DNA of 64,000 bases from positions 120,663 through 184,662 of the forward strand of contig NZ_BAKI01000001.1 in the NCBI RefSeq assembly GCF_000583655.1, in the 5' to 3' direction. A program made the position numbers and the translations under genes. Position 1 is the stretch's first letter, and each line of letters starts with the position of its first letter. The notes under the pieces were generated by a model, which was not told the origin of the DNA, did not search any database, and saw only the letters and a program-made list of their open reading frames with translations. Below, piece by piece: positions 22,122 through 58,895 of this stretch. This DNA is from Lentilactobacillus farraginis DSM 18382 = JCM 14108. GTDB lineage: Bacteria > Bacillota > Bacilli > Lactobacillales > Lactobacillaceae.

Positions 22122-23372
22122 TTATTTGGCAACAAAATAACGTTTATAGTCTTTAGAATAGTTGTGCATCATCCATTTGTATAATGCAAACCGCTTTAGA
22201 TTCTTATCTTTTGCGTACCAGAAAGTAGTGCCATAGCGACCTTCATGAATAAGCTGCATAGCCTGTTTCTTGACCGCATTATTTTGGGCGTACTTTTCAA
22301 AAATCTTCGGTGTAACGCCCAACCAAAGGAAATAATCCTGCTTATTCTTATTTGCGTAAACCGGGTCCTGATCCTTTAGCGAATCAAAGACGTAGTCCTG
22401 AACCACCCAGTCTGCCAAGTGATAGCCGTTCAACGTTACGAAGAAACTGCTTCTCCCCGTTCGGAGGTTAATTTCAAATAGTTTATAAGACTGATCCCGG
22501 GTATCAAATTTAATGTCAAAATTACAATAACCGGTAAACTTAATTTCTTCCAAAAATGTTTGAACCCGATTATAAATATCCTGGTTGAATTCCGGAATAA
22601 TTGCCACATAATTCCCAATGGCAGCCGGTGCCGGATCTTCCAAAAGCGGATGGCCAAGACACATTAATTTTACCTGATGATTTTTATCAACGTAGACGTT
22701 TAAAGTCCGCATATTACTATCATCACCGGGAATGAAGTCTTGAAGAATAAAGTCAGAAGTATAGCCGTTAGTATAACTTTTAGCTACGACATCCCTAAAT
22801 TCCGCCTCATTTTGAATAATAAACGCCTTCTTACGGCCTTCAAAATGAATATCCAGCCATTCAACACTATTAGCCGGTTTGAGCGCAACAGGATAACCAA
22901 ACGGCTGTGTAATTTTCTCACCGGATTCATACATTGCTTTTGTAATAATTTTAGTCTTGGGGTATGGCAAATCATACTTGTCACACATTTTGTAAAAATT
23001 CTCTTTATTATTCAGATGCCGAAGCATCTCGTAATCCACGTATGGGCAAACAAAAACGTCCTCGAGTTCCGCCTTGTGTTTAGAAATCAGTTCCGCGTAC
23101 CCGTCACCACAACCAATTAAAATAACCGGTTCCTGATGATCAGCGTAACGTTGCTTAATCTTTTGCATCTCGTTGATCCAAACCGGGTCTTCACTAAAGC
23201 CCGGAATTAATTCCAAATCAACAATTTTGGTGTATCTCGTTGGTGCCAAACTCACTTCGGCAAATGCCTTAACCGGCTTACCGTAAATATCATATAAACT
23301 TCGAGCCATACCGTAGACATTAAAATCGCTGCCTAGTAAAACCGGGGTGAAGTCAATGCTTTGATTAGTCAT
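22122..23372 (-). CDS. ATP-grasp carboxylate-amine ligase, probable D-aspartate ligase
   Basis: 416 residues with an ATP-grasp fold: N-terminal Rossmann-like part (PVLLGSDFNVYGMARSLYD), nucleotide-binding lysine region (PVALKPANSVEW) and the metal-binding FEINLRTGRSSFF. Length and motifs fit the Asl family that joins the beta-carboxyl of D-Asp to the L-Lys side chain of UDP-MurNAc-pentapeptide. Context agrees: MurE of L-Lys type upstream, racemase 14 bases downstream. Confidence 0.8.
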   Translation of the reverse strand: MTNQSIDFTPVLLGSDFNVYGMARSLYDIYGKPVKAFAEVSLAPTRYTKIVDLELIPGFSEDPVWINEMQKIKQRYADHQEPVILIGCGDGYAELISKHKAELEDVFVCPYVDYEMLRHLNNKENFYKMCDKYDLPYPKTKIITKAMYESGEKITQPFGYPVALKPANSVEWLDIHFEGRKKAFIIQNEAEFRDVVAKSYTNGYTSDFILQDFIPGDDSNMRTLNVYVDKNHQVKLMCLGHPLLEDPAPAAIGNYVAIIPEFNQDIYNRVQTFLEEIKFTGYCNFDIKFDTRDQSYKLFEINLRTGRSSFFVTLNGYHLADWVVQDYVFDSLKDQDPVYANKNKQDYFLWLGVTPKIFEKYAQNNAVKKQAMQLIHEGRYGTTFWYAKDKNLKRFALYKWMMHNYSKDYKRYFVAK

Positions 23373-23378
23373 TTAAAC

Positions 23379-24914
23379 TCATAGTCCTTTCACTAAATTT
23401 GCAACGATTGCCGCGTCCCCTGCATAGGGAACGTTTTTCCCATTAATTTTCTGAAAGGCGTCGTGTCCCTTTCCAGCTACAACTACCAAGTCGCCTTGTC
23501 GGCTGCCTGAAACCGCCTTTTCAATTGCGGCCCGACGATCTGCAATGTAACTGGTTTTAACACGGTCTTCATCAATGTGGGCAGCAATTTCATCGGCAAT
23601 TACTTTAGGATCTTCGGTTGCCGGATCATCCGTTGTCAGATAGGCAACATCTGCCAGTTCATTAATTGCTTTTCCCAAGCCTTCACGCCGATCGATACCT
23701 TTATCACCGGTACTACCGGTAATGACGGTAATCTTTCCGCTGGGGGACTGCTTTTTCAAAAACGCCAATACCGAATGTAGGCTGCCATAATTGTGGGCAT
23801 AGTCAACGTAAATCGTCCCATGTGTCTTGGTTGGGTAGATTTCCATTCGACCGGGAACCGTTGTATGTGCCAAGCCATAAGCAATCTCAGCCGGTCGGGC
23901 GCCCATCATGGCACTGGTAATCGCGGCTGAGACGGCATTACCTTCATTATAATCTCCAGGAATACTGATTTCATAGGTGCCGTCAATTCCTAACCGCTGG
24001 GCTTTGTCACTGACGGACCGCAAATAAATTTTATTTTCATTTAGCGAGTCAACCAATGATTCGTATTCAAAATCTTTTGGCAGCTCACGATTCATAGCCG
24101 ATCCCTTACGATGATAAACAAAGATGTCTTCTGGCTGACTGGTTGCTTTGGCAGCGTAATAAACGTCGACCATATGATCACTATCCGCGTTCAGCACGCA
24201 TTTAGTTGCATTAACCAACAATTGTTCCTTACAGTGTAAATAATCCGCAAAAGTTGGATGCTCATTTCGACCAATGTGATCCGGTGAAATGTTTAAAAAG
24301 ACCCCTACATCGTAGTGCAGATTATATACCCGCTGTTTTTTATAGGCTTGAGAAGAAACCTCCATCACCAGATGGGTCATGTTATTTTGAACAGCCTGAT
24401 TCATGTTGGTAAACAAATCCAGGGACTCCGGCGTTGTTAAGCTTGATTTAACGACATCCGTGGCATTGGGTCCAACCACCGTATTGATGGTTGAAAATAG
24501 TGCCACCCGCCGGTCATAAGCTTTATCCAAAATCGATTTGGTAAAGTAGGCGGAAGTTGTCTTCCCCTTCGTTCCAGTGTACGCGATTGTCGGCAATGCA
24601 TTTTGTGGAAACCCAAAAAATGCCGCACTTAAGAGCGACATTGCTTTTTGGATATTTTGAACAATGATTCCCGGAATAGTAGCTTTTCCGTACACTTTTT
24701 CTGAAACGTAGCCGGCGGCGCCCCGCTGTTCGGCATCCTGCAAATAAGCTTCCCGGAAGTTGCCCTTACAGAAAAACAGACAGTCGGCAGAAACAACCTT
24801 GGAATTATAGGCAATCGCCTTAAAACTTTGATTCAAATCAGTAAATTGACTCTTAACGAGTAAATCATGCTCCTTAAGAAGCAATAAAACTTCATCAACC
24901 GTAATCTGTGCCAA
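23379..24914 (-). CDS. murE: UDP-N-acetylmuramoyl-L-alanyl-D-glutamate-L-lysine ligase
   Basis: Mur ligase adding the third stem residue. ATP loop AYTGTKGKTTSAYF, the Ser-Ser-Gln motif (EVSSQAYKKQR) and the C-terminal specificity box DDPATEDP are present. The DDPA form in place of DNPR is the pattern of L-Lys-adding enzymes such as that of S. aureus, so an L-Lys stem peptide is predicted. I prefer the TTG start at 24914, which has AAGGTG 6 bases upstream, over an ATG at 24935 with poor spacing. The 511-residue product sits between asnB and the D-Asp ligase candidate. Confidence 0.9.
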   Translation of the reverse strand: MAQITVDEVLLLLKEHDLLVKSQFTDLNQSFKAIAYNSKVVSADCLFFCKGNFREAYLQDAEQRGAAGYVSEKVYGKATIPGIIVQNIQKAMSLLSAAFFGFPQNALPTIAYTGTKGKTTSAYFTKSILDKAYDRRVALFSTINTVVGPNATDVVKSSLTTPESLDLFTNMNQAVQNNMTHLVMEVSSQAYKKQRVYNLHYDVGVFLNISPDHIGRNEHPTFADYLHCKEQLLVNATKCVLNADSDHMVDVYYAAKATSQPEDIFVYHRKGSAMNRELPKDFEYESLVDSLNENKIYLRSVSDKAQRLGIDGTYEISIPGDYNEGNAVSAAITSAMMGARPAEIAYGLAHTTVPGRMEIYPTKTHGTIYVDYAHNYGSLHSVLAFLKKQSPSGKITVITGSTGDKGIDRREGLGKAINELADVAYLTTDDPATEDPKVIADEIAAHIDEDRVKTSYIADRRAAIEKAVSGSRQGDLVVVAGKGHDAFQKINGKNVPYAGDAAIVANLVKGL

Positions 24915-24942
24915 TATATGCACCTTCCGTTTCATATAAATT

Positions 24943-26822
24943 CTAAATCTTGGTTCGATGAACTAATTTAACCGTCTCTTCGGTCGTATCTTCCGGGAAG
25001 TAAACCTGATACCACAAAATAAAGGTATAGATAGTGAAGATTTTTTGCATATTAGATTTGCCCTCAGCATGCTGCTTGAGAAGAAAGTCCAGTTGATCAA
25101 CGTTAAAGAATTTTTTAGCCGTATCCGAATGGAATTCATGAACAATTCTTTCATGATATTTTGGATCATTAATCCAACTGGCGATCGGTGACGGAAAGCC
25201 CAGCTTTTCTTTCAAAGCCGTTTTCTTCGGCATCTCCCGTTCAGCCGCGGTTCTTAACGCAATTTTGGTTTCTTCCGGGGTAATCCTGGTTTTAACCGGC
25301 ATTGTTGAAGCAAATTCCGCAACTTTTTTATCAACCAGTGGTACCCGAACTTCCAAGGAGTTGCACATACTCATTCGATCCGCTTTATGCAGAATGTCAT
25401 AAGGCAACCAGGTGTTAATGTCAAAATATTGCATCTGCGTCATTTCGTCCTTACCGGCAACGTCATCAAAAATATGCTTTGTATAGGCGCCCGAGTCGAC
25501 ATTAATCGACGGGTCCTTTAAAACCCTATTCCGATCATCGTAATTAAAGACATAGTTTACCCGATAGTAGCGCTCGCTAAGCGCTGCGCGCCCCGAACCA
25601 GGAAGCGCTTGCCATGGAAACGCGGCAATTTGTTGGCAACGGCAGCCAAGCCTTTTCTAATCGGCTTTGGAACATACTTTTGATAACGATCAAATGGAAT
25701 TGATTCCAAGTAAGTGTTATAGCCACCAAAGAACTCATCGGCACCCTCGCCGGAAAGGGCAACTTTAACATGCTTGGAAGTTTCTTTTGATAAATAATAA
25801 AGCTGAATCGCTGCCGGATTGGAAAGTGGCTCGTCCATGTAGTACATCATTGTCGGCAGAAAATTGAAATAATCATCCCCATCCATATAGATTGGGGTAT
25901 TTTTTTGCTTAATATTTTTAGCAAATTCAGTCGACCAAGCCAACTCACTGTATTTGGAGTGGTGAAAACCAATTGAAAATGACTGGATTGGCTTTAATTT
26001 GGCAGCCTCATTTAAAACGTAGCTTGAGTCGATCCCACTGGACAAAAAGCTGCCAACTTCAACATCCGCAATCATATGAGCCTTGACGGAATCGTCAACA
26101 ATCTTTTGAATTTTGTCGGCATCCCCTTGAATCGTCTGGCTGTTATCAATATGATCATAATTAAATTTGTAATAACGGTGAGTTTCTGTCTTGCCGTCTT
26201 TATGAAGGAAATATTGACCTGGGAGCAATTTATAAACATGCTTAAACATCGTTTCCCGTGAAGGAATAAATTCAAAGCTCAAGTGAATCGGCAGCAGCTT
26301 TAAATTCAGTTCCTTTTTAAAGTTGGGATGTTCCAAGAACGCTTTAATTTCAGATCCCCATAAAAATGATTGGCCGTCATCATAGTAATAAAGCGGTTTG
26401 ATACCAAAATGATCCCGGGCACCAAACACCTCGTTTTTCTTCTTATCATAAATGACAAACGCAAACATTCCCCTTAGCTTTTCAAGCAGTGCCGGTCCCC
26501 ACTCTTCATAACCATAAACCAGCACCTCGGAATCCACGTCAGTTCGGAACTCGTAGCCAAGGTCGCGCAACTCTTCACGGATTTCTTTATAATTGTATAT
26601 TTCACCATTAAAAGTTAATACCTTTGTCTGATCAGCATTAAACATCGGCTGACGGCCATGGGCTAAATCAATGATGGAAAGTCGTCGAAATCCCATTGAT
26701 ACATTTTCGTCTGCAAAATAAGCCTCGTCATCGGGACCACGATGCTTGATTCTGTCTGCCATGTCATTAATCGTACCTTCAGGAACATCTTTTTGGTTAA
26801 CATAACCAACAAATCCACACAT
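24943..26822 (-). CDS. asnB: Glutamine-hydrolysing asparagine synthase, likely peptidoglycan D-Asp amidase, frameshifted near 25578
   Basis: The start MCGFVGYVNQ exposes the nucleophile Cys2 of a class II glutaminase domain (to about residue 200), followed by an ATP pyrophosphatase domain (SSGIDSSYVL, LSGEGADEFFGGY). The frame ends at QRLASATIG, while the next frame gives SERYYRVNYVFNYDD and continues to the normal C-terminus; one missing base near 25578 restores 626 residues. Family members amidate free Asp, or cell-wall residues (AsnH amidates the D-Asp crossbridge in Lactococcus; AsnB1 amidates mDAP in L. plantarum). With L-Lys MurE and a D-Asp ligase in the same operon, crossbridge D-Asn formation is the best inference. 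Start at 26822 follows GAAGGGGAA. Confidence 0.88.
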
Positions 26823-27044
26823 AATCAATTCCCCTTCTGTTGTAAATCTAACTTTGTTAGCCTAATATATCGAACATAACGGTTTTTATTTTATCAGATA
26901 ACCTCCATAGCTACCAGTAGAATAATGCTTTCTTAAAAAACGGCGTCGTTATGCGTCTAAGCCGACGTTGTATTTCATTTTACCACCAATATAAGTTATA
27001 CTTGACTTAAGAGTATGAAAAAGCAATTGAAGGGAGCGGTACCT

Positions 27045-29885: not shown

Positions 29886-31391
29886 CTAGCCGTGTTGATA
29901 CCAGCCAACCGGACCAGGGGTTAAATTGATATTAATCTGTTTGGTTTCCTGATATTCTCTTAAGCCGGCTTCTCCCAGCTCGCGACCGATACCACTCATT
30001 TTATAACCACCCCAAGGTGCTTCATTAAAAGTTGGATTGTAGCAGTTCACCCAAGTAATACCGGCACGGATCTCCTTAATCACTCGAAGCGCCTTTGCCC
30101 CATCGCTTGTAAAGACGGCTCCGGCAAGACCATAACGGGTATCATTGGCAAGCTTAACCGCCTCTTCTTCCGTTTGAAATGTTTGAATCGTCACAACAGG
30201 GCCGAAGATTTCTTCTTGAACAATTCGCATGTGTGACGTACAATCGTCGAAAATTGTCGGTGCAATAAAGTTCCCCCGCCCATAAGGCGGATCCGTCAGC
30301 CGGTAACCACCACAAACCAACTTGGCTCCTTCTTGCTTACCAATCCGAATGTAATCAAGGATCCGATTCAACTGGCGTTTGGAAACTACCGGCCCCATGT
30401 CCGGATTATCCAAACCGTTGCCTATCGTCAAAGCCTCGGCCCGCTCTTTTAGCCGCTTGATAAATTTATCTTTCAAACGTTCTTCAATAATAATCCTTGA
30501 CCCTGCTGAACAAATTTCTCCCTGATTCAGAAAAATTCCCAGCATTGCCCATTCCACTGCACCTTCAAAATCAGCATCGGCAAAAATAATATTGGGAGAT
30601 TTACCACCAAGTTCCAGCCCGATTTTTTTAACATTACCAGCTGCAGCCCGCATAATTGATTGGCCAACCGCGGTACTCCCCGTGAATGTAATCATATCAA
30701 CGTTTTCATTTTTTGCCAATTCGGCACCAACCTGCTCTCCCGTTCCAATTACTAAATTGGCCGTGCCTGCCGGTAACCCAACTTCATCGAAGATGTCAAA
30801 TAATCTAACAGTGGACAACGGTGTTATTTCACTAGGCTTAAACACAACACTATTACCGGCTGCTAACGCTGGCGCCAGTTTCCAAACGCCCATTAATAGC
30901 GGATAATTCCATGGCACAATCTGAGCGCAAACCCCAACTGGTTCATGAATAGTACTTGCGGCCATTCTGCCAAAGCCGTCATTAACACCATAATTACTGC
31001 CGCTCGGGGCCTTAATCAATCCAGCATAGTATAAAAAACAGTGATAGGCATCATCAACATCCCCTTCAGCCTCACGCAATGGCTTCCCATTGTCGACAGT
31101 ATCCAAATAGGCTAATTCATCTCGATTCTCACTAATTTTTTCAGCAATTTGATACAGAATGTCGGATCGAGCCTGCGTGTTCATATCTCGCCATTCCCGA
31201 GTCACATAAAATGATTTTTGGGCCGCTAAGACTGCCCTAACAGCATCTTCTCTGGAACTTTCGGCCACAATCCCGATTAAACTGCCAGTGGCTGGGTTAT
31301 AGACATTTCGCTGTTTTCCACTCATCGCCGGCTGCCAACGACCATCAATATAGTTTCCCTTAAAAGTAGTCACAGTTTCACTTCTCTGCAT
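29886..31391 (-). CDS. NAD-dependent aldehyde dehydrogenase, betaine-aldehyde-dehydrogenase-like
   Basis: 501 residues. The catalytic Cys lies in NQGEICSAGSR and the general base Glu in LGLELGGKSPN; NAD-binding VPWNYPLLM and FTGSTAVGQ are complete. Closest in look to GbsA-type enzymes oxidising glycine betaine aldehyde, but no choline dehydrogenase or transporter is adjacent, so the substrate remains open. Single gene preceded by the terminator of the salvage island. Confidence 0.8.
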   Translation of the reverse strand: MQRSETVTTFKGNYIDGRWQPAMSGKQRNVYNPATGSLIGIVAESSREDAVRAVLAAQKSFYVTREWRDMNTQARSDILYQIAEKISENRDELAYLDTVDNGKPLREAEGDVDDAYHCFLYYAGLIKAPSGSNYGVNDGFGRMAASTIHEPVGVCAQIVPWNYPLLMGVWKLAPALAAGNSVVFKPSEITPLSTVRLFDIFDEVGLPAGTANLVIGTGEQVGAELAKNENVDMITFTGSTAVGQSIMRAAAGNVKKIGLELGGKSPNIIFADADFEGAVEWAMLGIFLNQGEICSAGSRIIIEERLKDKFIKRLKERAEALTIGNGLDNPDMGPVVSKRQLNRILDYIRIGKQEGAKLVCGGYRLTDPPYGRGNFIAPTIFDDCTSHMRIVQEEIFGPVVTIQTFQTEEEAVKLANDTRYGLAGAVFTSDGAKALRVIKEIRAGITWVNCYNPTFNEAPWGGYKMSGIGRELGEAGLREYQETKQININLTPGPVGWYQHG

Positions 31392-31435
31392 ACATATCGC
31401 CTGCTTTTCTTAATTTAAAAACAATTAAAATGATT

Positions 31436-31475
31436 AAAAGGCAACTAATGTTATATCTTCTAACATTAGTTGCCT
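31436..31475 (-). terminator. Terminator of the hydrolase island
   Basis: Perfect 15-base stem (aggcaactaatgtta and its complement) followed by TTTTAATC on the minus strand. Confidence 0.8.
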
Positions 31476-31558
31476 CATATATTACCACTTAACGTTTCAG
31501 CAAACAACCAGGATTGTCAAAACTGCTTTATCATTTTAAACCTGACTGTGCATCTTAA

Positions 31559-32314
31559 CTATCTATTTAAAAGATAATCAGCACATTTTTCACCAATCTG
31601 ATTAAACAACTGAATTGTTTTTGAACGATCTCTCGAACCAAAGGTCAGCAGTGCGACCGAAACAGTGTGGTTGCCATATACAAATTCAGCCACGTCATGG
31701 TCAATTTGATAACCCTCACCGGTTTTGTTAAACACCTGAATACCATTTCCCGATTCATCAAAAGCACCGGCTAACTTATAGCGAAACTGTTGATTCAAAA
31801 ACCACGGTTTGGCAATCGGATACTTTGCCAATACCATTTCCAATAAGCGTTGACTTTCACTAACCGATGTATAATTATCAAGCCCGTTTCTTAAAGCACT
31901 TGTATCCATCAAATTACGATTAAGTCGGGTTTTAGTGAATCCTCGTTGTTGTAAATATTGATTAATTTTTGGTTTGCCAACACTGTCAATCACAAAATTG
32001 GTTGCCGCATTATCGGAAACGCTAATCATCAAAGCCAATAAGTCTCTTAACCGGAGTCGGGGAATTGAAAGTAATTGCAAAACACCCGCGCCACCAACCA
32101 TTTTATCAGGATTCAGTTGAATTTCTCGAGATAAATCCTGATGACTGGCCAAGACGTAATTTATAACAGCCAATTTAATTAAAGAAGCTGACCGAAATTG
32201 CCGATCAGCATTAATGGCCAGCTCCTGTTGACGGTCAATTTTAATTGTGATGCCGATTTCATAAGGTTGACTGGTAATCAATTTACGAATTGAACGAATC
32301 AAGTCCGCTTTCAT
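31559..32314 (-). CDS. Cytoplasmic class A beta-lactamase-fold serine hydrolase
   Basis: 251 residues with the three class A boxes: SxxK in SASLIKLAV, SDN in MISVSDNAATN and KTG in FNKTGEGYQ. Unlike secreted beta-lactamases it has no signal peptide, so it is predicted to be intracellular. Its ATG overlaps the stop of the NlpC/P60 gene (ATGA) and follows AGGAGA. A peptidase acting on imported murein peptides is the inference from position; whether it hydrolyses beta-lactams cannot be told. Confidence 0.8.
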   Translation of the reverse strand: MKADLIRSIRKLITSQPYEIGITIKIDRQQELAINADRQFRSASLIKLAVINYVLASHQDLSREIQLNPDKMVGGAGVLQLLSIPRLRLRDLLALMISVSDNAATNFVIDSVGKPKINQYLQQRGFTKTRLNRNLMDTSALRNGLDNYTSVSESQRLLEMVLAKYPIAKPWFLNQQFRYKLAGAFDESGNGIQVFNKTGEGYQIDHDVAEFVYGNHTVSVALLTFGSRDRSKTIQLFNQIGEKCADYLLNR

Positions 32315-33201
32315 CGCCAATATCTCCTAAACCCTGCAAATTCAGCCGCAAACTTGGGCTCAGTTAAGCTGGCAATGTCAACTGTTTTTCCCGGTGTCCT
32401 GGATTCAATCATTTTACCGTTACCGATATACATCCCGACATGGTGCACATAACCTTTGCCATGATTATAGGCAAAGAAGACCAGGTCACCCGGCAAAATA
32501 GCCTCCGGCGCAATTGGCATACCGCCTTCACGTTGATCGTCAGCATCTCTGGGGATTTCAAAGCCCAAAACCCGATGCAGCGTGTAGGCCAAACCGGAGC
32601 AGTCAAAACCATAAGCGCTGATACCGCCCCACAAATAACGCATTCCAAGAAATTGCCGTGCCATTGCCACCATTGTTTCACCAGCATTCTGTTCCGCAAA
32701 TGGTACAATTGCCGCTTCCTTTTTTAAGTAGCCCTTCCCAAACGGTGTCGCAACCTCAAGAAAATCACCGTCAATTCCGGTTTCCGGCAGAATGGTTCCC
32801 AGGCTGACAACCATTAAGGGTTCCTTATTTGCATCATACAATTGAGCTGTTTTAACCGCAACTCGAACCGTTGATGTGACGGGTGGATAAGTGATCTGTC
32901 GATCAGTCAGTAATTTCGCCGGTACCCAGCCGGGATACCCCCTGGAATCCGAATCGTCTTTTTGATTGACAACAAACACCTTTGCCCAATCACCATCAAA
33001 ATGGTCAATTATCAATTCATCATTAAATAACGCCTGTGTCTCCAAAAGATCATCATCGCTCAGTTGAACGGACGCTTCATCACTCATTTGAGCAACCCAG
33101 CTCTTGACGTCACCGGCCAACGCCGGTTGATCCACTTGTCGCGGTGCTGTTTTGGATTTCCAGATAGTTGCCACAGGTACTTTAACACGTCTTGTTTCCA
33201 C
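32311..33201 (-). CDS. NlpC/P60 endopeptidase with SH3b repeats, YkfC-like
   Basis: 296 residues: two SH3-like segments (about residues 10-95 and 100-160) then a NlpC/P60 domain with the catalytic Cys in YGFDCSGLAYT, His in YVHHVGMYIG and a third polar residue shortly after. There is no signal peptide, as in B. subtilis YkfC, a cytoplasmic gamma-D-glutamyl-L-diamino acid endopeptidase of murein peptide recycling. GTG start after GGGGGTG. Its partner gene overlaps it, and the L-Ala-D/L-Glu epimerase is just upstream, which supports this role. Confidence 0.85.
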   Translation of the reverse strand: METRRVKVPVATIWKSKTAPRQVDQPALAGDVKSWVAQMSDEASVQLSDDDLLETQALFNDELIIDHFDGDWAKVFVVNQKDDSDSRGYPGWVPAKLLTDRQITYPPVTSTVRVAVKTAQLYDANKEPLMVVSLGTILPETGIDGDFLEVATPFGKGYLKKEAAIVPFAEQNAGETMVAMARQFLGMRYLWGGISAYGFDCSGLAYTLHRVLGFEIPRDADDQREGGMPIAPEAILPGDLVFFAYNHGKGYVHHVGMYIGNGKMIESRTPGKTVDIASLTEPKFAAEFAGFRRYWR

Positions 33202-33294
33202 CGTGACACCCCCTATTCGTTTTTAATTATGATACCACGAATATCACTTTCAATAAATAAGAGCGACTTTTCAATGCCAATCCATAAACCTAAT

Positions 33295-33328
33295 CAAAAA
33301 AAGAAGCGCCGCCAAATCGCGCCGCTTC
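33295..33328 (-). terminator. Terminator after the epimerase gene
   Basis: GC-rich stem gaagcg..cgcttc followed by eight U on the minus strand. Confidence 0.75.
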
Positions 33329-33364
33329 CATTTCGCCAAATCTTTTATTCAACTAATGGTCATT

Positions 33365-34447
33365 TTAATGACGGTCCTGAAATCCCAATCCAGGGACGTC
33401 AGGCAGTTGAATCCGCGCTTTTTGATTAATTAAGCCTCCCTGAACGGGATTGCTTGAAAACATCATTGAGGCATCCAAGTCGACATACTTCACATTGCGT
33501 TTGGCTGCAGCTAAATGAGCCGCTGCCGTTACCGAAACAGAAGACTCGATCATACTGCCGACCATACAGGAAATACCGGCTGTTTCCGCTAAAGTATTGA
33601 TTTTTAAGGCATTATCAATACCACCGGCTTTCATCAGCTTTAGATTAATCAAATCGCATCCCCGCATTGAAATTAACCGCTGCGCATCTGCGACTGAAAA
33701 AACACTTTCATCCGCCATAATCATGGTTTGAGTATGCCGGGTCACGTAAGCCAGCCCTTCAAAATCAGCTGCCGGCACCGGCTGTTCAACCAGTTCGATT
33801 GCCAATCCCATTTGGGCCATCCGGTTAATTGCGGCAACTGCCTGTTTATGATGCCAGCCCTGATTGGCGTCCAACCGTAGTTTAACCGACGGGCCAACCG
33901 CTTGGCGAATGGCAGCTACCCGTTGCACGTCCGCGCGTTCCGATTGACTGCCAACCTTAATTTTTAATGTCGAAAAGCCTGCCGCAATCAAGTCCTGCGC
34001 TTGACGAATCATTTTTTCCGTTGAATCAACACTGACCGTATAGTCTGTTGTAATATGGTCCGCGTTACCGCCCAAAACTTGAACCAATGGGACGTGATAG
34101 TGCTGCGCAATCAGATCATTAACCGCAATGTTTAAGGCCGCTTTAGGACTCGAATTATGCACCATTGCCTGATCGATTGTTGCCTTAATATCTTCGGAAT
34201 TAATCAGGGACTTACCAATCAATTTGGGCCCGATAATATCATTAATCGCTTCTTTTATACTTGAAACGGTGTCACCGGTAATGACCGGTGTGGGCGCTGC
34301 TTCACCAAAGCCCACCAAGCCATCACTATCGATCACCTTGATGATAAGTGTTTGGGCGGTTGTTACCGTTCGTAAAGCCGTTTTAAACGGTCGCTTTAAA
34401 GGAACCGCTTCTTCGGTAACCAAGATTTTTTTAATAACCGGCGTCAC
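33365..34447 (-). CDS. L-Ala-D/L-Glu (dipeptide) epimerase, enolase superfamily
   Basis: 360 residues. Muconate lactonising subgroup: KxK acid/base in LKIKVGSQ, metal ligands in LRLDANQGW, ELVEQPV and MADESVFS, and the second lysine in NLKLMKAGG. Such enzymes convert L-Ala-D-Glu from murein into L-Ala-L-Glu, which ordinary peptidases can digest. Adjacent NlpC/P60 gene (releases L-Ala-D-Glu) and peptide-binding lipoprotein match the B. subtilis ykfABC-dppE logic. Confidence 0.85.
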   Translation of the reverse strand: MTPVIKKILVTEEAVPLKRPFKTALRTVTTAQTLIIKVIDSDGLVGFGEAAPTPVITGDTVSSIKEAINDIIGPKLIGKSLINSEDIKATIDQAMVHNSSPKAALNIAVNDLIAQHYHVPLVQVLGGNADHITTDYTVSVDSTEKMIRQAQDLIAAGFSTLKIKVGSQSERADVQRVAAIRQAVGPSVKLRLDANQGWHHKQAVAAINRMAQMGLAIELVEQPVPAADFEGLAYVTRHTQTMIMADESVFSVADAQRLISMRGCDLINLKLMKAGGIDNALKINTLAETAGISCMVGSMIESSVSVTAAAHLAAAKRNVKYVDLDASMMFSSNPVQGGLINQKARIQLPDVPGLGFQDRH

Positions 34448-34461
34448 TTATAAGCGCCCCC

Positions 34462-36081
34462 CTACTTGATGTAAGCATCTTTAAAGTTGTAATTTGCGCC
34501 GGCAGTGTTGTAAATCACATCTTTAACGTTTGATTTAATTAACCATTTTTCACCGGATTGATACAGTGGAATAATCGCCTGGTCCTTTAAAGCCAAGGTT
34601 TGTGCTTTGACCATATCATTCCACCGAGACTGGGCATTGCTGCCGTCATCATTATTACTTGCATCGATCAACTGATCATATTGCGTGTTCTTCCATCCTG
34701 AAATATTACTTGGGTTTTTAGACGTTAAAATATTCAGGAAAGTAATCGGATCGGAAAAATCAGCAAACCAATTGGCAACCGTTGCCTGGAATTGATGGTT
34801 TGCCTGCCGGGATAAGATAACCCGACCGGGAATATTATTTAAAGTTACGTGAAGTCCTGGCAACTTCTCAAGTGCGCTTTGCAGGTATTCACTCAACTGC
34901 TTTTGATCATACGTATCCGAATTCAGCAATGTAAAGTGCAGTGATTTAAGCCCAACTTCCTGAAGGCCCTGCTTAAAGAGCTGCTTTGCCCGGGTCGGGT
35001 TATAGGACATGGACGCAGGCGCCGTTACATCTTTGGTAAAGTCAGTCCCATCCTTCGGTGAAACGGCCAGTCCTTTCGATACAAAGCTGTCAGTGCTGAT
35101 TGCCCCGCCGGCAACAACTCGGTTTGCCAACAATGGCCGATTAATAATCATTGACATTGCCTGGCGGATCTTCAGGTTTTTAAAAGCCTTCAGTCGTTGA
35201 TTAACGGCAATATAATAACTCGACGATTGCTGCCGTGAAACTAAATCTTTCTTCTTCTTCATTTGTTTGGACTGGGTGGCCGACAATTGAGCCATATCTA
35301 AGTTATCCTGATTAAATAAGTTTAGCCCGGTTGACGGATCCTTAACGACTTTGAACTTCACATTATCTAGCTTGACATGCTGTTTATCCCAATAAGTATT
35401 ATTTTTCTTTAGTGTCCAATTCAAGTTTGTTCCGGTCCACTTTTTCAGTGTAAACGGCCCGTTATAAACTTGTGTGCCGGATGATGTCCCGTATTTGCTG
35501 CCATACTTATTAACTGTCTTGGCGTTTTGCGGGAAGAATACCGGAAAGCCCATCAGCAGCTTGAAGTACGGAATTCGCTGTTCCAGCGTCACCGTCAATT
35601 GATACTTGCCATTTGCTTTAATACCAAGCGACGAAACGGGGGCCTTTTTATTTTGGATTTTATCAGCATTTTTGATCCCCGAGAATAAATAGCCGTACTG
35701 GGAAGCTGTCTTGGGATTTAACGTCCGCCGCCAGGAATAAACGAAGTCCTGAGCGGTAACCGGATCACCATTGCTCCATTTAGCGTTCTTTCTAAGCTTA
35801 AATGTATAGGTCTTCCCATCTTTTGAAATAGTCGATGAAGTGGCAATCCCCGGCTCCACCTTGCTGTTCTTCCCAAGCCGAAACAAACCTTCATCAACGT
35901 TGTTTAAGACGTTAAAGGTGCCAACGGCCGTTGTCTTTGACGGATCAACCGTTGTTAATTCCGAATCAGTCGACGTTGTGATCGTTTTTTTCTGTTGGCC
36001 TGTTTTTTGGCCACACCCAACCAGAATTAACGAAATGCCGGCAATACTTGCTAACATCGATATGTTACGAGACATGTGCAT
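34462..36081 (-). CDS. Peptide-binding lipoprotein (OppA/DppE family)
   Basis: Extracellular solute-binding protein family 5. Lipobox ILVGCGQK follows a hydrophobic signal. The conserved family 5 segment (YTFKLRKNAKWSNGDPVTAQDFVYSW starts similarly) is present. About 540 residues. Several ATGs follow GAGGAG; 36081 gives 8-base spacing and is chosen. No permease or ATPase genes are adjacent, so it must use an Opp-type transporter encoded elsewhere, as MppA does. Position beside the epimerase suggests murein peptides as ligands. Confidence 0.87.
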   Translation of the reverse strand: MHMSRNISMLASIAGISLILVGCGQKTGQQKKTITTSTDSELTTVDPSKTTAVGTFNVLNNVDEGLFRLGKNSKVEPGIATSSTISKDGKTYTFKLRKNAKWSNGDPVTAQDFVYSWRRTLNPKTASQYGYLFSGIKNADKIQNKKAPVSSLGIKANGKYQLTVTLEQRIPYFKLLMGFPVFFPQNAKTVNKYGSKYGTSSGTQVYNGPFTLKKWTGTNLNWTLKKNNTYWDKQHVKLDNVKFKVVKDPSTGLNLFNQDNLDMAQLSATQSKQMKKKKDLVSRQQSSSYYIAVNQRLKAFKNLKIRQAMSMIINRPLLANRVVAGGAISTDSFVSKGLAVSPKDGTDFTKDVTAPASMSYNPTRAKQLFKQGLQEVGLKSLHFTLLNSDTYDQKQLSEYLQSALEKLPGLHVTLNNIPGRVILSRQANHQFQATVANWFADFSDPITFLNILTSKNPSNISGWKNTQYDQLIDASNNDDGSNAQSRWNDMVKAQTLALKDQAIIPLYQSGEKWLIKSNVKDVIYNTAGANYNFKDAYIK

Positions 36082-36153
36082 CATCATCACTCCTCAAAAT
36101 ATGTGCGATTCTTAACGAACCCCGCTTAAACTCTAATTTAGCATAAATATTAT

Positions 36154-36193
36154 AAAAAAACAGGCTTTTTTAATGAATTTTTCATCAAGCCCG
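36154..36193 (-). terminator. Terminator after the C39-like gene
   Basis: Imperfect stem gggctt / aagcct with AT-rich inner pairing and a run of seven U on the minus strand. Confidence 0.6.
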
Positions 36194-36207
36194 TTAAATT
36201 TACATAT

Positions 36208-36762
36208 TTAATTAATGACGGCAACCGCCATTCGCCGTGTATTATAAATTGCTTCGAACTTTTCCTTCGCCAGCCAATATTTGCCATCAATCGGATCACT
36301 GACATGAACCTTTTGATCGGAAAAACCATCCAACAAAACTGCATGGTTATTTACCGGTACCCTGCCAAAGGGATATATCTCCCAATCCGGTGCCTCAAAA
36401 TGAACCGTGACATAAGTAACGACCGGATTATGTTTTGCGACTTCAGCATACAACCAGGCGGGGGCTGCACCGCTTAAATCAATCAGCCGGCCATATTGTC
36501 GGCCCCAGTTCAACAACGGCCGAACAAAAATCGCTTCAAACTTTCCCGATTGGTTTTTAAAAGGAGACCCACCAAAACCACGATAAGGATTACCGGCTTG
36601 ATTGATCGGCATCGTTTTTAAAAATTGGCCGTAACTCAAATTTAGTGCGCGGCATTTAAAATGAAGCCCCATCAATAAACTGGCCGCCTCGCAACCATTG
36701 ACGGCTCCCCAAGCCATTTGACGAATATTTTCTGCTCCCAACAAAATCTGTTCTGCCATCAT
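36208..36762 (-). CDS. C39-like cysteine peptidase family protein
   Basis: 184 residues. The catalytic Cys in NGCEAASLLMG, the His in NNHAVLLDGF and the Asp in VSDPIDGKYW fit the peptidase C39-like 2 family. No signal peptide. Its start overlaps the stop of the P1 peptidase gene (ATGATG). The substrate is unknown; context suggests a peptide or wall-peptide role. Confidence 0.78.
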   Translation of the reverse strand: MMAEQILLGAENIRQMAWGAVNGCEAASLLMGLHFKCRALNLSYGQFLKTMPINQAGNPYRGFGGSPFKNQSGKFEAIFVRPLLNWGRQYGRLIDLSGAAPAWLYAEVAKHNPVVTYVTVHFEAPDWEIYPFGRVPVNNHAVLLDGFSDQKVHVSDPIDGKYWLAKEKFEAIYNTRRMAVAVIN

Positions 36763-37865
36763 TTAACCCCTAATTGTGATTTAACGTTGTCAACCATTTC
36801 AGTATACTGCGGCTGGCTGACTTTAAGCTGCTGCAAAGCATCAGTTAAGGATAACCGCAATCGGCCCTTTCGATCGATCACCGATTCAGCGTGAACCAGT
36901 GAACTTAAAACAGCTTCGTCTACTGAAGCCGCGGCTGCTCTAAAAAATAAATCGATTTGGTTATCGTTAAACCGGGTGATCGTCTCAAATTGACGCTTGG
37001 CAAAGTGATTAATCAGATTAGTCGTTGAAAAAGCAAAAACAATTTCACCACTGCCATTGCCAATGAAGCCGCCGGTTCGATTAATGCCGACCGTCGCGCG
37101 CTTGGCCAACCGCTTTAGTTGACGGGAATTTAAAGGCGCATCCGTTGCCAACACCGTAATGATAGAGCCCTTCTCCTCTTTTTGTTTATTGGCAGCAATT
37201 AACTTAGCCAGTGGCTTGCCGATGGGAATCCCATTAACAATAAAGTCATCCAAAAAGCCATAATTGGTCATTACCAGCGCACCAACTGTATACTGATGAT
37301 CTTGGTCAACTTTAACAATCCGGGAAGAAGACCCGATACCGCCTTTCAAATCGTAACACATCATCCCCCGACCGGCGCCAACTGCCCCTTCGGCAAATTG
37401 ACCGTCAGTGATGCTTAATGCCCGGGAAACGTCACTTTCGGTTAATGCCATTTTGCGAATGTTGGACACATCACCATCGTTACATTCCGCGACCACTGGA
37501 TTAACGGTGCTGGTAGTATCACCGATTTCCTTGTTCTCTGCCAGCAGCTGCTTTGTCAACGCATTAATGGCGGTACCAACTCCGAACGTATTGGTAAGTA
37601 AAATTGGCGTCTCAATTGTTCCCAGTTCGTCAATCTGCACCAAACCGACACTTTTTCCGAAACCATTGATGACATAGGCGGCTGCCGGCACCTTTTTTCG
37701 AAATAAATTTCCCGGATGCGGCCGAATTGCAGTCACGCCCGTATGAACATCGCCATTGTCGATGGTGATTTGCCCTACCCGAACGCCCGGCACGTCCGTA
37801 ATCAGGTTTAAACTGCCTTTAATCCCTTGAGATAAGTCGTTTACAAGTGGTTGTTCAAGTCCCAT
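36759..37865 (-). CDS. P1 family peptidase (DmpA-like aminopeptidase)
   Basis: 368 residues. N-terminal nucleophile type hydrolase: the autocleavage site and nucleophile Ser lie in EKGSIITVLATDAPL, and RTGGFIGNGSGEIVF completes the DmpA signature. Family members hydrolyse N-terminal D-amino acids or beta-peptides after self-cleavage of the precursor. D-Ala removal from murein peptides would fit its position, but this is inference. Confidence 0.85.
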   Translation of the reverse strand: MGLEQPLVNDLSQGIKGSLNLITDVPGVRVGQITIDNGDVHTGVTAIRPHPGNLFRKKVPAAAYVINGFGKSVGLVQIDELGTIETPILLTNTFGVGTAINALTKQLLAENKEIGDTTSTVNPVVAECNDGDVSNIRKMALTESDVSRALSITDGQFAEGAVGAGRGMMCYDLKGGIGSSSRIVKVDQDHQYTVGALVMTNYGFLDDFIVNGIPIGKPLAKLIAANKQKEEKGSIITVLATDAPLNSRQLKRLAKRATVGINRTGGFIGNGSGEIVFAFSTTNLINHFAKRQFETITRFNDNQIDLFFRAAAASVDEAVLSSLVHAESVIDRKGRLRLSLTDALQQLKVSQPQYTEMVDNVKSQLGVK

Positions 37866-37891
37866 TTCAAATTTCCCCCAACATCGTTGTC

Positions 37892-38598
37892 CTAATGGCT
37901 GTTTAATGTTACCTGAAGCAGCATCATACCCATTGCGATTAAATTATTTAAAAAGTGCAGGCCAATCGGCACCTTGATATTATTGGTATGAACGTACAAA
38001 TAAGCCAACGTACCGCCCAAAATTGCATACGTTAAGAAACTGATGACGTTGATATCTGCCATGTGTGGGAACGCAAATAAGACGCCACTAATTACAACTG
38101 CCAATGCTTTGGTCCTGGTCGTGAACATGGCGCCAATCAGAAAGCCCCGAAATACCAGTTCTTCCAAGATTGGCGAACAAAAGACCGCCGTAAACCCCAT
38201 TAAAACCAAGGTGAAGTGATTGGTTCCCATTATTTGATAGATTACTTTGTTGTTTGCCGTTGATGTTTGATGATAAATTGCCTGGTTCAATAAGCCAAGC
38301 CCAATCTGAATAACAAAAAATGACACATACGCCACCAAAATCATCGAAACATCTTGACGGGTTAATGGCATTTTTGAGGATGCGCGTATTTTCGATAACA
38401 GTAGACAGCAATCGTGATTGCCAATGCAAACCCCAATAAATAAATGCCTGCCCAAGTGTACCGGCCAATTGCCGAATAGTGCCCATACATAATAAATGAC
38501 AATGGTAATTGAACAATTAAAACCAGTACTACCAAGCCAACAAAAACGGCAATCCGCTCAAAATAGTCCCCTGCTCTTAGTTGGTTGTTTTTATCCAT
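37892..38598 (-). CDS. CPBP family intramembrane metalloprotease, frameshifted near 38373
   Basis: Several membrane helices and the ABI/CPBP signature: EELVFRGFLIGAM (EExxxR), FAFPHMAD (FxxxH) and HFLNNLIAM. The N-terminal part ends early at HPQKCH; the second frame continues MPLTRQDVSMILVAYVSF. A sixth A in the A-run at 38371-38375 joins them into 235 residues. AGGAGG precedes the ATG. Members act as prenyl-processing-like proteases or in bacteriocin immunity. Confidence 0.82.
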
Positions 38599-38618
38599 TT
38601 AGTCCTCCTGTTAATATG

Positions 38619-40474
38619 TTATGAATTGAACAGTTTGTCCAGCTTGTTAAAATCAACCGTTCCCAAACCAGTTGCCTGGTTATACAATTTTCCCGGTTGA
38701 CCGGTGTAATATAAATTCGTGTTATTGGTTCGACTGTCCAAAACCGTAAATGGTGAATTGGTCTGCGCGGCAAAGCGATAAATCTGCGGGTTCCAAAAGC
38801 CCAACCGGCCAGAAGTATTATTTGACATTAAAATACTGGCAGCTGCCATCTGCGGGGCAACGACACTGGTGCCGCCGGAAACTTCCCACTCACCCGTAGC
38901 TGAGGAGTCTTTCTTGGGTGTTATGAAAATGGCATACCCGGTATTCGGATCCGCATTTGCTGATAAATCCGGCACATTACGGCCCTTAGCTTTGCCACTG
39001 ACAGCAACCGGCTTATCCAGCAGTTTGGCCTTGCCGTTTTTAAACGACCAAAGTCGAGTGGCATCATAAGTGCCAACACCACTAAAGCCGGATTGATACT
39101 TGGGAACTGCATTATAGCGGCTGAATCCGCCACCACCGCCGGCAAAGAAAGTTTGAACCCAATCTTCAAAGCCGTTGAACTGCTGATTCTTATATTGCGG
39201 ATACAGAAATTCGGAAGCCCAGGCCCGTTCCTTATTAATTTGAACCGTTTGCTTATTAACGTTATAAGTTCGCGGCAGTGTTGTTCCGCCGACAGCTGTC
39301 ACAAAAGGCGAATTAGCCGGTGTGTCAACGCTCAATGCAGTACTGCCACCCGAGATTCCATCGTAAGCGCCATTATCGCCGCTGGCTGCAAACACGCTGA
39401 TTCCTTGGGCAGCCGCCTGTTCAAATAATAAATTCATAATCTGATTGTATTTGGCAGGTGTCACCCCCTGCTTGATTTCATACGCCAGCTGGGCTTCACT
39501 CTGCCCCCAGCTCAACGATAAGACATCAACTGTATTCTGCCCGGTGGCTGCTGCCAATGAGTTAACCATTCCGGTAATATTGGGCTTGCCAATGTAGCTC
39601 GAATATTACTATCCGGCGCCACCGCGCCAGCCTGCTCAATATCGGTTGTCGTTTCGTTATAGCCGTCCCAAGTACCCCGATAGCCGTTTGTTCGATAAGT
39701 ACTTAATCGATTAGATTTAACATCAATTCCCATCCCGTTCCAAAACCGGTAAGCATCGCTGGGATGATAATTGGCAAAAGAAATAATCCCAATCGTCTTA
39801 CTACGGCCGGTTGAGCCATTATCATAAAGCTTTGAAACCCCATAATGACCGATAAACTTAGCCGGCGAATACCGTTTGGCAACCTCCGTTTGGCTCAGAC
39901 CAACCGCTGCCCGCGTATAAAGGGAAGCCGGCTTGTAGGTAAGACTGCTTTTAGAAACGGTCGTGTATGTTGATAATCCCATGACTGCCAGAATTGACTT
40001 GGCAAATGATTTTGGAATGGTTGGCTTTTTTGTCGTCTTTTGGTAAGTTGTTTTATTCTTTGAAACGTTGACCAGCTTAACCTTAAATGCCTTCTGGATA
40101 TTTTTAGTTGACCCCTTAACGGCCATAACCAAGTTACCACGATAAACAACCGTCTTTAGGTGGTATCGATTCAGATAGTGACGGAATTTTTGAACGTTTT
40201 TGGTAGGTTGACCGAATTTGTCGGCAAATTGGCCGGATGTGACAAATTTACGATAATTTTTAGCTGTCGGGTCAACTGATTGATAAACAAATTGATCCAA
40301 TTTCTTTTGGCTTCGTGGTTTTAGCACCACATCGATCAATTGCTGTTTAGAAGCAGAAACAGCCGTTGTTTTGGTTTTTGCCGAAGCCGAAGAACTTTCA
40401 ATTACGCCTGCCGTTATAGCAACAGTACTGGTCGCAACGATCAATATTAATTTCTTTAGTATCTTTTTTCGCAT
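38619..40474 (-). CDS. Secreted S53 (sedolisin/kumamolisin) serine peptidase, frameshifted near 39582
   Basis: Signal peptide (KKLILIVATSTVAITAG), pro-kumamolisin activation domain (about residues 50-190), then the catalytic domain. The Glu and Asp are four residues apart in NETTTDIEQAG, the oxyanion Asp lies in FAASGDNGAYD and the nucleophile Ser in SGGTSVVAP, with the calcium-site region at the C-terminus. The frame breaks after ATLASP; the next frame resumes NITGMVNSLAA; one missing base near 39580-39584 restores 618 residues. Family members are usually active at acid pH, which suits an acid-producing bacterium. SD gaggagaag precedes the ATG. Confidence 0.88.
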
Positions 40475-40515
40475 AAACTTCTCCTCGAATCAGACTATTT
40501 TGGGATTTGGCTTGC

Positions 40516-40761
40516 TTATTCTTCGGAGGCCCCTTCCGAACGGTGCTTGGCAGCTGCTTTCTCCAAAGCAGCCTTGCGTTGGTCTCTTGCACGAACAATT
40601 GAAATGACCAGTGGTGTAATCACCAAATGCATCACAACAATGGCACCGATCCAAATGATAATAAAGCGAATCGAGTTCCAGGCCATTTGCCTGGTTAAGT
40701 AAAATGCCCCTGTTAAAATTAAAATAATTAATAGCAAAATTAAGCCGACTTTTTTCTTCAT
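40516..40761 (-). CDS. Small membrane protein of unknown function
   Basis: 81 residues: two hydrophobic helices (about 5-23 and 33-57) and a charged C-terminal tail rich in Lys, Arg and Glu. No strong ribosome-binding site is seen. It precedes the S53 gene by 42 bases on the same strand. The overlapping frame starting 16 bases upstream is cysteine-rich and not membrane-like, so I prefer this one. Confidence 0.6.
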   Translation of the reverse strand: MKKKVGLILLLIILILTGAFYLTRQMAWNSIRFIIIWIGAIVVMHLVITPLVISIVRARDQRKAALEKAAAKHRSEGASEE

Positions 40762-40884
40762 AATTTAAATTAAACATCCTATTCTAAATTAGTAACGTTC
40801 AGAGCGCTGGTTTGTGACCCACTCCTTGGTCAAGTATAATTGATGTGAATACAATAACACAAGCATTACTCGGAGGTGAAGGAA

Positions 40885-41262
40885 ATGTTGAAAGAATTTA
40901 AAGCATTTATATCCAGAGGAAATGTGATTGACCTGGCTGTCGGGGTTATTATTGGCGGTGCTTTTACAGCCATCGTCACCTCACTAACGACCAATTTGAT
41001 CAATCCATTCATTGGTCTGTTTTTAGGCCGCATCGATTTATCCAATCTAGTTGTAAAAATCGGTGGAACAACCTTTAAATACGGTGCCTTTCTGAATTCG
41101 ATCATCAACTTTTTAATTATCGCGTTTGTGGTTTTTGTCCTGATTAAAGCCATTAATCGCCTTGTCAAAAAGGAACCGGCAAAACCAACCCCGGACAAAA
41201 AAGAGGTGCTTCTGGAAGAAATCAGGGACCTGCTGAAAGAAGAAAATCAAACGCCAAAATAG
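40885..41262 (+). CDS. mscL: Large-conductance mechanosensitive channel
   Basis: 125 residues with the MscL N-terminal helix [20 protein letters not shown], a second membrane helix and a cytoplasmic charged C-terminal helix. Releases solutes on hypo-osmotic shock. Start at 40885 follows GGAGG by 9 bases. Confidence 0.96.
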
Positions 41263-41384
41263 GTTCCCAATTCAACCGCAAATGACTTTGAAACGCCAAT
41301 TTATTGCGCTTCGTACGCCTTTGTTCTAGAATTAAGTTATTAGAAAAACTTTATAATGTCAAAAATTCGAGAAGAGGTTTTGTT

Positions 41385-54189: not shown

Positions 54190-54445
54190 GAAAAAAAGCC
54201 TACAGGAAGCCATATTCAACTTCCTATAGGACGATTAATCGCGGTACCACCTATATTCTTAACGCCGACCACGGGCGTTGAGCACTCTAAACATTGATAA
54301 CGGCGATTAACCGACTTAACCTACTAAATTTCAATCAAGCATTCGACGATGAGTTCATCATTAATCAATCCGGATTTTCAACACCCATCCGGTTTCTTAA
54401 ATTGATTCATAATTACTAATTCGTCTCTTCATTTTCATTAATATT
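54190..54445 (-). promoter_or_regulatory. T-box riboswitch of leuS
   Basis: The T-box core GGTGGTACCGCG (minus strand 54251-54240) lies before a terminator hairpin (54232-54197: cctataggaag / cttcctgtagg then seven U). A specifier context GAA-CTC-A at 54356-54350 presents the leucine codon CTC, in agreement with leuS. Uncharged tRNA-Leu stabilises the antiterminator. Total leader about 255 bases. Confidence 0.92.
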
Positions 54446-58650: not shown

Positions 58651-58654
58651 TTTA

Positions 58655-58725
58655 TTTCCCCCTATATATTTTTTAGGTTACAAGGCTTCTTCACGTCCAG
58701 CGTGAATCCTATCGGGAACTCATAA
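58655..58725 (-). promoter_or_regulatory. SMK box (SAM-III) riboswitch of metK
   Basis: The leader has the conserved blocks GTTCCCGATAGGAT, GAAGCCTTGTAACC and the ribosome-binding GGGGGAA in order, as in E. faecalis metK. SAM folds the leader so that the GGGGG is hidden in pairing with a CCC-type complement and translation stops. Restricted to Lactobacillales, it supports the taxonomic call. Confidence 0.9.
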
Positions 58726-58895
58726 CTTCACTATGTTATCATAATTTTTTTATTTTTGGAAGCTTTATTTTAAAGACCTCGTTGACCGGTTTGCCAAAAA
58801 ACATTAAGATAATTTTATTACCATTAACTTGAATGAAACCCTTTTCTGCAGATGATAAACGCATAACTAAGATAAAACGGAGGTGACGTGAAACT

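Follow-up and report, generated by a model that had tools for sequence, protein, structure and literature searches.

A conserved gene island of Lentilactobacillus farraginis that may extend ykf-type murein-peptide salvage to D-Asp-bridged peptidoglycan

We analysed a 64,000-nucleotide stretch of contig NZ_BAKI01000001.1 of Lentilactobacillus farraginis DSM 18382 (the window), in which nine genes occupy the minus strand from position 40761 down to position 31559. A first-pass annotation of this DNA had listed them as a small membrane protein, an S53 sedolisin, a CPBP protease, an S58 (P1/DmpA) peptidase, a C39-like peptidase, an OppA-type substrate-binding lipoprotein (SBP), an L-Ala-D/L-Glu epimerase, an NlpC/P60 protein and a class A beta-lactamase-fold enzyme (Bla), and had proposed that they form one enlarged murein-peptide salvage system. 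Order and strand were as it described. Pfam matches backed eight of its nine family names: pro-kumamolisin (the S53 pro-domain), CPBP/Rce1, S58, C39_2, SBP_bac_5, MR_MLE, NlpC/P60 with a YkfC SH3b domain, and Beta-lactamase2. The small membrane protein gave only a sub-threshold match.

Three of these genes had been compared with the ykf-dppE system of Bacillus subtilis, and the solved relatives bear this out. The best solved match of the epimerase (33365..34447, minus strand) was B. subtilis YkfB (1jpm, E 6.3e-104); its best NCBIfam model was A_G_epim_Thtga, at 244.6 bits, under the cut-off of 500. The NlpC/P60 protein (32311..33201, minus strand), a predicted YkfC-type gamma-D-Glu-L-diamino acid endopeptidase with an SH3b domain, aligned with Bacillus cereus YkfC (BcYkfC; 3h41, 1.9e-53) across residues 6-294 of 296. 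An excerpt of the BcYkfC study gives Tyr118, Asp256, Cys238 and His291 as the residues that define the YkfC subfamily, and reports that YkfC and dipeptidyl-peptidase VI differ (Ala/Ser) at the Ser257 position (PMC2954226). In the window protein Tyr89, Cys201, Asp219 and His253/254 correspond to BcYkfC Tyr118, Cys238, Asp256 and His290/291, and Ala stands at the Ser257 position. The SBP (34462..36090, minus strand; SBP_bac_5) carries the lipobox LVGC; among solved proteins DppE (8ay0, 8.5e-81) ranked fourth, with 5kzt, 6npo and PrgZ (4faj, third) closer. Part of a commentary states that DppE binds murein tripeptide (PMC10009517), and a murein peptide is the predicted ligand here. Neither the epimerase nor the NlpC/P60 protein has an obvious signal peptide when its N-terminus is inspected by eye. 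The island holds no permease genes, and two OppC-like matches lie on other contigs of the source genome. No S66 (YkfA) protein was found among the ten island open reading frames (ORFs) scanned with Pfam. PF02897 had no match in the source genome.

We then looked at how far the island is conserved. Searching named genomes for the epimerase yielded 19 loci, and adding a genus-mate (L023) made 20; L020, L021, L022, L024 and L025 were treated as duplicates of L002, L005, L012, L017 and L015 and stand outside this count. A core of six genes, S58-C39-SBP-epimerase-NlpC-Bla, was present in the same order on one strand in 19 of the 20 loci, a conservation that exceeds chance. The sole exception, Neobacillus niacini (L018), has SBP-epimerase-NlpC-Bla. 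The window epimerase is 84% identical to that of L. raoultii and 80% identical to that of L. hilgardii, where about 2 kb separate epimerase and NlpC. When 151 Lactobacillaceae genomes were drawn separately, five of the six same-genus genomes carried epimerase, S58, C39 and Bla. Scattering of the genes in relatives had been named as a result that would speak against a common function. The six-gene core is not scattered, being syntenic in the examined loci of Lentilactobacillus and in two of Secundilactobacillus; the three outer genes partly are. The second piece of the S53 gene (see below) and CPBP occur together in 16 of the 20 loci, all of them Lentilactobacillus except the Lactobacillaceae metagenome-assembled genome L013; the search for them was negative in the two Secundilactobacillus loci, in L014 (whose contig ends there) and in L018. 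A homologue of the small membrane protein is present in 11 of the 20.

Several other genes adjoin these loci. A DUF1002 family gene lies 3' of Bla in L014 (L014:8396-9433, the copy typed with Pfam), L015, L017, L023, L026 and L027. In L015, a Secundilactobacillus locus, there follows a LysM-NlpC/P60 gene whose N-terminus is signal-like. In L026, L027 and L028, related genomes of genus g20, epimerase-NlpC-Bla adjoins arginine deiminase and carbamoyltransferase genes, with no S58 or C39 gene adjacent; these rows include a CRP-type regulator gene and, in L028, also an ArgR-type one.

The last gene of the core (31559..32320, minus strand; Beta-lactamase2) encodes a PBP-A-like serine hydrolase that we predict to be a D-Ala-trimming peptidase. 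It has the motifs S46xxK49, S102DN and K199TG, and its structure model reached a mean predicted local distance difference test score (pLDDT) of 94.3. The position of class A Glu166 is Leu137 in the window enzyme and Leu, Met or Phe across all 18 aligned rows, so it lacks the Glu166 that marks class A enzymes. By profile comparison the top-scoring relative with a described activity was PBP-A, a D,D-carboxy/endopeptidase (PMC11189452) that also has Leu at this place. We considered KTGE as a mark of epimerase-linked Bla and rejected it because the unlinked relatives L133-L135 also have KTGE and the four Bla copies of the S58-bearing operons in family f8 (below) do not; L133 and L134 have an export-like N-terminus.

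Bla is a frequent neighbour of the epimerase. It lay within 2 kb of an epimerase gene in 21 of 22 Lactobacillaceae matches of at least 240 bits (a split epimerase adjoins the single exception) and within 6 kb in 12 of 16 matches of at least 160 bits from other Bacilli, at thresholds set after the lists had been inspected, with weaker matches outside these counts and with a profile (A1) built from epimerase-linked sequences, so that, within Lactobacillaceae, a high score is biased towards linked copies. Across all typed matches the linked share was 21 of 35 in Lactobacillaceae (at least 148 bits) and 14 of 40 in the class Bacilli (at least 122 bits, within 8 kb), where epimerase positions were typed in part, chiefly from genomes with a typed Bla match. 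Contiguous opp-S66-epimerase-NlpC-ATPase-Bla rows were found in L063, L064, L066 and L067, and epimerase-Bla also occurs in rows with MurQ-like, phosphotransferase system (PTS), RpiR, MupG or S11/VanY genes. S66 had no match in 9 of the 13 searched Lactobacillaceae genomes that carry epimerase-Bla. That a PBP-A-like enzyme accompanies the Ala-Glu epimerase in several families is a new observation. In L034 and L035, epimerase-Bla stands between a MurQ-like gene and, on its other flank, MupG and esterase genes, a row that would tie stem-peptide salvage to N-acetylmuramic acid (MurNAc) salvage.

The S58 gene (36759..37865, minus strand; Pfam S58, 1.3e-113) encodes a DmpA/BapA-type N-terminal-nucleophile aminopeptidase with a full-length domain and the nucleophile Ser272 within GNGSGEI. 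Its solved relatives are 2drh (deposited as a hypothetical D-aminopeptidase), DmpA (1b65) and BapA (3n2w). Next to it lies the gene of a C39-like cysteine hydrolase (36208..36762, minus strand; C39_2), whose Cys24, His140 and Asp156 are invariant in 11 alignment rows. The closest fold, 3erv, is deposited as a putative C39-like peptidase (template-modelling score, TM, 0.85). We rejected a cross-bridge isopeptidase assignment by fold, because the pseudomurein endoisopeptidase PeiR ranked fifth, at TM 0.54. The S58, C39 and Bla proteins had been described as lacking signal peptides, and inspection by eye likewise revealed no obvious one.

S58 is present in 15 of the 151 Lactobacillaceae and 77 of 299 Bacilli genomes. 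It adjoins C39 in 11 of those 15; four of the 11 pairs lie outside the island (G088, G098, G115 and G139), three of them on opposite strands. S58 also enters salvage loci in a second family, f8. G176 and G225 carry the row S58-two peptidase ORFs-epimerase-SBP-opp-S66-Bla-NlpC, and G337 and G364 carry the same operon minus the epimerase. In these four loci (L070, L071, L089 and L090) the Bla copies have KTGS or KTGG. The two ORFs 3' of S58 are M15 and M55 peptidases (by Pfam in L070, by BLAST in L089 and L090), and ORFs of similar size stand at this position in L071; in L070, L089 and L090 the M15 protein is VanX-like and the M55 protein resembles the D-aminopeptidase DppA. The f8 S58 genes form their own clade, distant from the island S58 and with unlinked S58 sequences between, in a tree with long branches. 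The simple reading would be two separate recruitments of S58 into salvage loci, the alternative being an ancient linkage with later losses, which the tree also allows.

Some 5-10 kb downstream of the island, its strand carries genes of a second kind. According to an excerpt of PMC4155827, the D-Asp bridge of lactic acid bacteria is the product of an ATP-grasp ligase (AslA) working with RacD, and AsnH amidates it. The row in the window consists of an asparagine-synthase-type amidotransferase, a candidate AsnH (24943..26828, in two ORFs, beyond the range covered by the first-pass annotation; one 628-amino-acid ORF in a single frame in L. raoultii L001); a MurE ligase with the motif DDPA in place of DNPR (23379..24935); an ATP-grasp protein with weak ATP-grasp profile matches, a candidate AslA-like D-aspartate ligase given its place between murE and the racemase gene (22122..23372); and an aspartate racemase of family TIGR00035 (21379..22107; 255.6 bits, cut-off 93.1), a candidate source of D-Asp. 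Of the 28 loci L001-L028, 18 (including 3 duplicates) were found to hold the amidotransferase, 11 murE, 9 the ATP-grasp gene and 5 the racemase; in many the sequence ends within or ahead of this row.

To compare the two gene sets, the ATP-grasp protein was searched in 28 genomes that were chosen rather than sampled, and the 25 with a Bla-linked salvage locus were analysed (G387, G443 and G283 have none and were left out). A 27% partial match in G279 was scored as no ligase and a 30% match in G230 as a ligase. All 8 genomes with S58 in the salvage locus had a D-Asp-ligase homologue (43-100% identity), and none of the 10 genomes without such a homologue had S58 in the locus (one-sided Fisher 0.006, the genomes not being independent). 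The link between S58 in salvage loci and genomes with a D-Asp-ligase homologue is also new. The motif DNPR marks MurE enzymes that add diaminopimelic acid (DAP). It was present in eight genomes that look meso-DAP-containing, with DNPA in G230; DDPA or DDPG was found in 12 of 13 Lactobacillaceae, with neither found in G112. The six f8 genomes have DDPR, and G176 and G225, the two of them in which second copies were read, also have a second copy with DNPR. The MurE motifs agree in part with the ligase comparison.

An uncross-linked D-Asp bridge residue has a free amino group. In a Lys-D-Asp wall its beta-carboxyl forms the amide with the lysine side chain (PMC4155827, which covers this in part). 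From the side of that amide, the residue counts as an N-terminal beta-amino acid with D configuration. Since the relatives of S58 are the hypothetical D-aminopeptidase 2drh, DmpA and the beta-peptidyl aminopeptidase BapA, its removal would be a natural S58 reaction.

On balance we favour, as probable though by no means firm, a reading of the island as ykf-type murein salvage extended to D-Asp-bridged peptidoglycan, with S58 removing the bridge residue and the Bla-fold enzyme trimming D-Ala; the activities of all island proteins are predicted from their sequences. Imported stem peptides would be broken down in the cytoplasm. The DppE-like lipoprotein would pass them to an Opp permease encoded elsewhere. 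The PBP-A-like hydrolase would next take the C-terminal D-Ala, or split D-Ala-D-Asx cross-links, replacing or supplementing YkfA, and S58 would strip beta-linked D-Asx (D-Asp or D-isoAsn) from the lysine side chain, a bond of the class cut by BapA/DmpA relatives. The YkfC-type enzyme would then cleave gamma-D-Glu|L-Lys, and the YkfB-type epimerase would convert L-Ala-D-Glu to L-Ala-L-Glu for ordinary dipeptidases. C39 would probably act on this bridged peptide as well, as a cysteine (iso)peptidase or amidase, and that it acts on a bridged or amidated peptide at all is our guess. The earlier hunch that S58 and the Bla-fold enzyme are extra trimming steps gains support from what other families show and from the comparison with the D-Asp ligase, the activities themselves being predictions.

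A bolder proposal, which we put forward tentatively and with rather less confidence, is a dedicated pathway for D-Asp/D-Glu-bridged peptidoglycan. Here S58 enzymes would peel off the bridge as D-isoaspartyl (D-isoasparaginyl) aminopeptidases and would have entered murein-salvage operons of bridged-wall Bacilli on two or more occasions, and the PBP-A-like enzyme would be the missing, widespread partner of Ala-Glu epimerase salvage across Bacilli. To our knowledge, the recycling of cross-bridged wall peptides in Gram-positive bacteria is largely unassigned, and S58 enzymes are known mainly as biocatalysts. If right, the bridge-salvage reading would supply a natural substrate for S58 enzymes and a function for an uncharacterised beta-lactamase-fold family, and bridge catabolism would be directly testable with synthetic peptides.

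A number of observations weigh against the bridge-salvage reading. Glu96 of PBP-A is reported to select D-isoGln peptides; the corresponding position is Gly77 in the window enzyme and Gly in 18 of 18 Bla rows. In the structure comparison, the scores of several class A beta-lactamases come close to that of PBP-A. Linked Bla occurs in only 21 of 39 epimerase-bearing Lactobacillaceae genomes, and the linked share is far smaller among the at least 137 Bacilli genomes with an epimerase. We rejected the idea that Bla is a plain substitute for YkfA, because S66 and Bla stand together in Bacillaceae-type operons; the source genome itself has two S66 matches, on other contigs. The small same-genus genome G051, one of the six drawn, had no epimerase, S58, C39 or Bla matches. 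Seven ligase-positive salvage genomes (G139, G098, G058, G148, G027, G131 and G230) have no S58 in the locus, so the S58-ligase link runs one way, and the genomes behind it belong to two lineages and are not independent. Contrary to the reading from its motif, the window MurE scores as a DAP ligase in NCBIfam (737 against a cut-off of 715), the Lys model falling under its cut-off. S58 is mostly unlinked: among the matches listed, only G176, G225, G337, G364 and the window have it in a salvage locus, and the family also cuts other peptides. Finally, the excerpt of PMC4155827 describes almost complete amidation of D-Glu in the lactic acid bacteria studied, so salvage would need a deamidation step, which we can place only by guess.

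The genes might instead serve general peptide scavenging, with S53 digesting outside the cell, the SBP importing, and S58, C39, NlpC and Bla acting as broad peptidases on unusual dietary peptides, the ykf part being one of several uses. S53 and CPBP indeed lie directly 5' of S58-C39 on the same strand in Lentilactobacillus, no hairpin stands out 3' of S53 in the window, 5kzt, 6npo and PrgZ outrank DppE for the SBP, and S58 is mostly unlinked among the Bacilli matches listed. We nevertheless regard scavenging as unlikely, because the two Secundilactobacillus loci keep the six-gene core where S53 and CPBP were not found, the YkfC specificity residues are retained, and Bla-epimerase sits elsewhere in MurNAc-salvage gene rows. 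Alternatively, only the ykf genes and Bla might belong to murein salvage, with S58-C39 an independent upstream peptidase pair in its own transcription unit. The pair is movable, as its four occurrences outside the island attest, and a terminator-like hairpin separates C39 from the SBP gene. That S58-C39 lies upstream of the SBP gene in all 19 core loci, and that S58 appears again beside opp-S66-Bla-NlpC in a distant family whose S58 genes branch separately in the tree, make this a somewhat more doubtful proposal still.

The third rank of PrgZ (4faj) for the SBP, together with the role of CPBP proteases in maturing peptides in other systems, could point to the SBP, CPBP and the peptidases maturing or importing a peptide signal. 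The island holds no regulator gene (only ORFs of at least 60 amino acids were listed, which leaves room for a peptide gene), and an epimerase and a YkfC-type enzyme have no known role of this kind; we consider pheromone processing very improbable. A resistance-type beta-lactamase, which the class A motifs SxxK, SDN and KTG and the fold would suggest, was rejected for its missing Glu166 (Leu137), and we give it almost no credence: no signal peptide was seen, the best NCBIfam class A model reached 60 bits against a cut-off of 200, the other 24 of the best 25 of 50 were also below, and the gene is a frequent partner of the epimerase.

The nine genes are likely to form three transcription units, membrane protein-S53-CPBP-S58-C39, SBP-epimerase and NlpC-Bla, with two strong hairpins between the units and a third ending the last. 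Three internal terminators had been reported. Three hairpin-plus-T sites do exist, on the minus strand, of which those 3' of C39 (36145..36205, fold z -4.3) and 3' of the epimerase (33280..33345, fold z -4.4) are internal and the third (31425..31480, fold z -7.0) lies at the island end. A simple terminator scan listed none of the three and gave no excess over shuffled sequences. A promoter-like site 5' of NlpC/P60 (33226..33253, minus strand) matches the consensus at 10 of 12 positions and was recognised by consensus only. S58 and C39 overlap by 4 bases, and NlpC and Bla by 10. No known RNA element was found in 31000-41300 at E up to 0.1; elsewhere on the minus strand of the window are a T-box leader (54224-54438) and a SAM-III riboswitch (58648-58730).

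The proposal of one nine-gene murein unit is not supported for the three outer genes, which were found only in Lentilactobacillus-type loci and which nothing in this analysis connects with murein peptides. They comprise the small membrane protein (40516..40761, 81 amino acids), the S53 sedolisin of pro-kumamolisin type (38619..40474) and the CPBP/Rce1-like membrane protease (37892..38598), all on the minus strand. They are best regarded as a secreted-protease unit of their own in Lentilactobacillus that probably shares a transcript with S58-C39. S53 is split into two ORFs that overlap and lie in different frames (39512-40474 and 38619-39569); the second has no Pfam match alone, and in L. raoultii L001 the two run together as a single ORF of 622 amino acids. 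CPBP is likewise split (38362-38598 and 37892-38455) and is a single ORF of 233 amino acids in L001. The maltose phosphorylase gene (41304-44101) also looks frame-split. At least four split genes in one window (amidotransferase, CPBP, S53 and maltose phosphorylase), three of which, the amidotransferase, CPBP and S53, are intact in L. raoultii, suggest indel errors in the assembly and not decaying genes. In L002, L011 and L012 the opposite strand carries a second, divergent S53 gene a few kilobases downstream of the island.

No paper linking S58, or an enzyme of class A fold, with ykf-type salvage turned up in an open-access literature search, and the island can be set beside four known systems. 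Its S58 shares the full-length domain and nucleophile Ser with DmpA, BapA and 2drh and differs in its murein-salvage setting, for which that search showed no paper. Like PBP-A of Thermosynechococcus elongatus (2j7v), its Bla enzyme has a class A fold, Leu for Glu166 and an acidic residue after KTG (KTGE, against KTGD in PBP-A); it differs in being only about 21% identical, in having Gly for Glu96, in lying beside an epimerase gene and, seemingly, in lacking a signal peptide. MurNAc/muropeptide salvage operons with MurQ-like, MupG, PTS and PF00144 enzyme genes hold epimerase-Bla in other Lactobacillaceae genera, whereas the window island is without sugar genes. The B. subtilis ykfABCD-dppE system likewise clusters a YkfB-type epimerase, a YkfC-type endopeptidase without a visible signal peptide and a DppE-like SBP. 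The island lacks YkfA (S66), YkfD and permease genes; it adds S58, C39 and the PBP-A-like enzyme, in a genome that holds candidate D-Asp-bridge genes.

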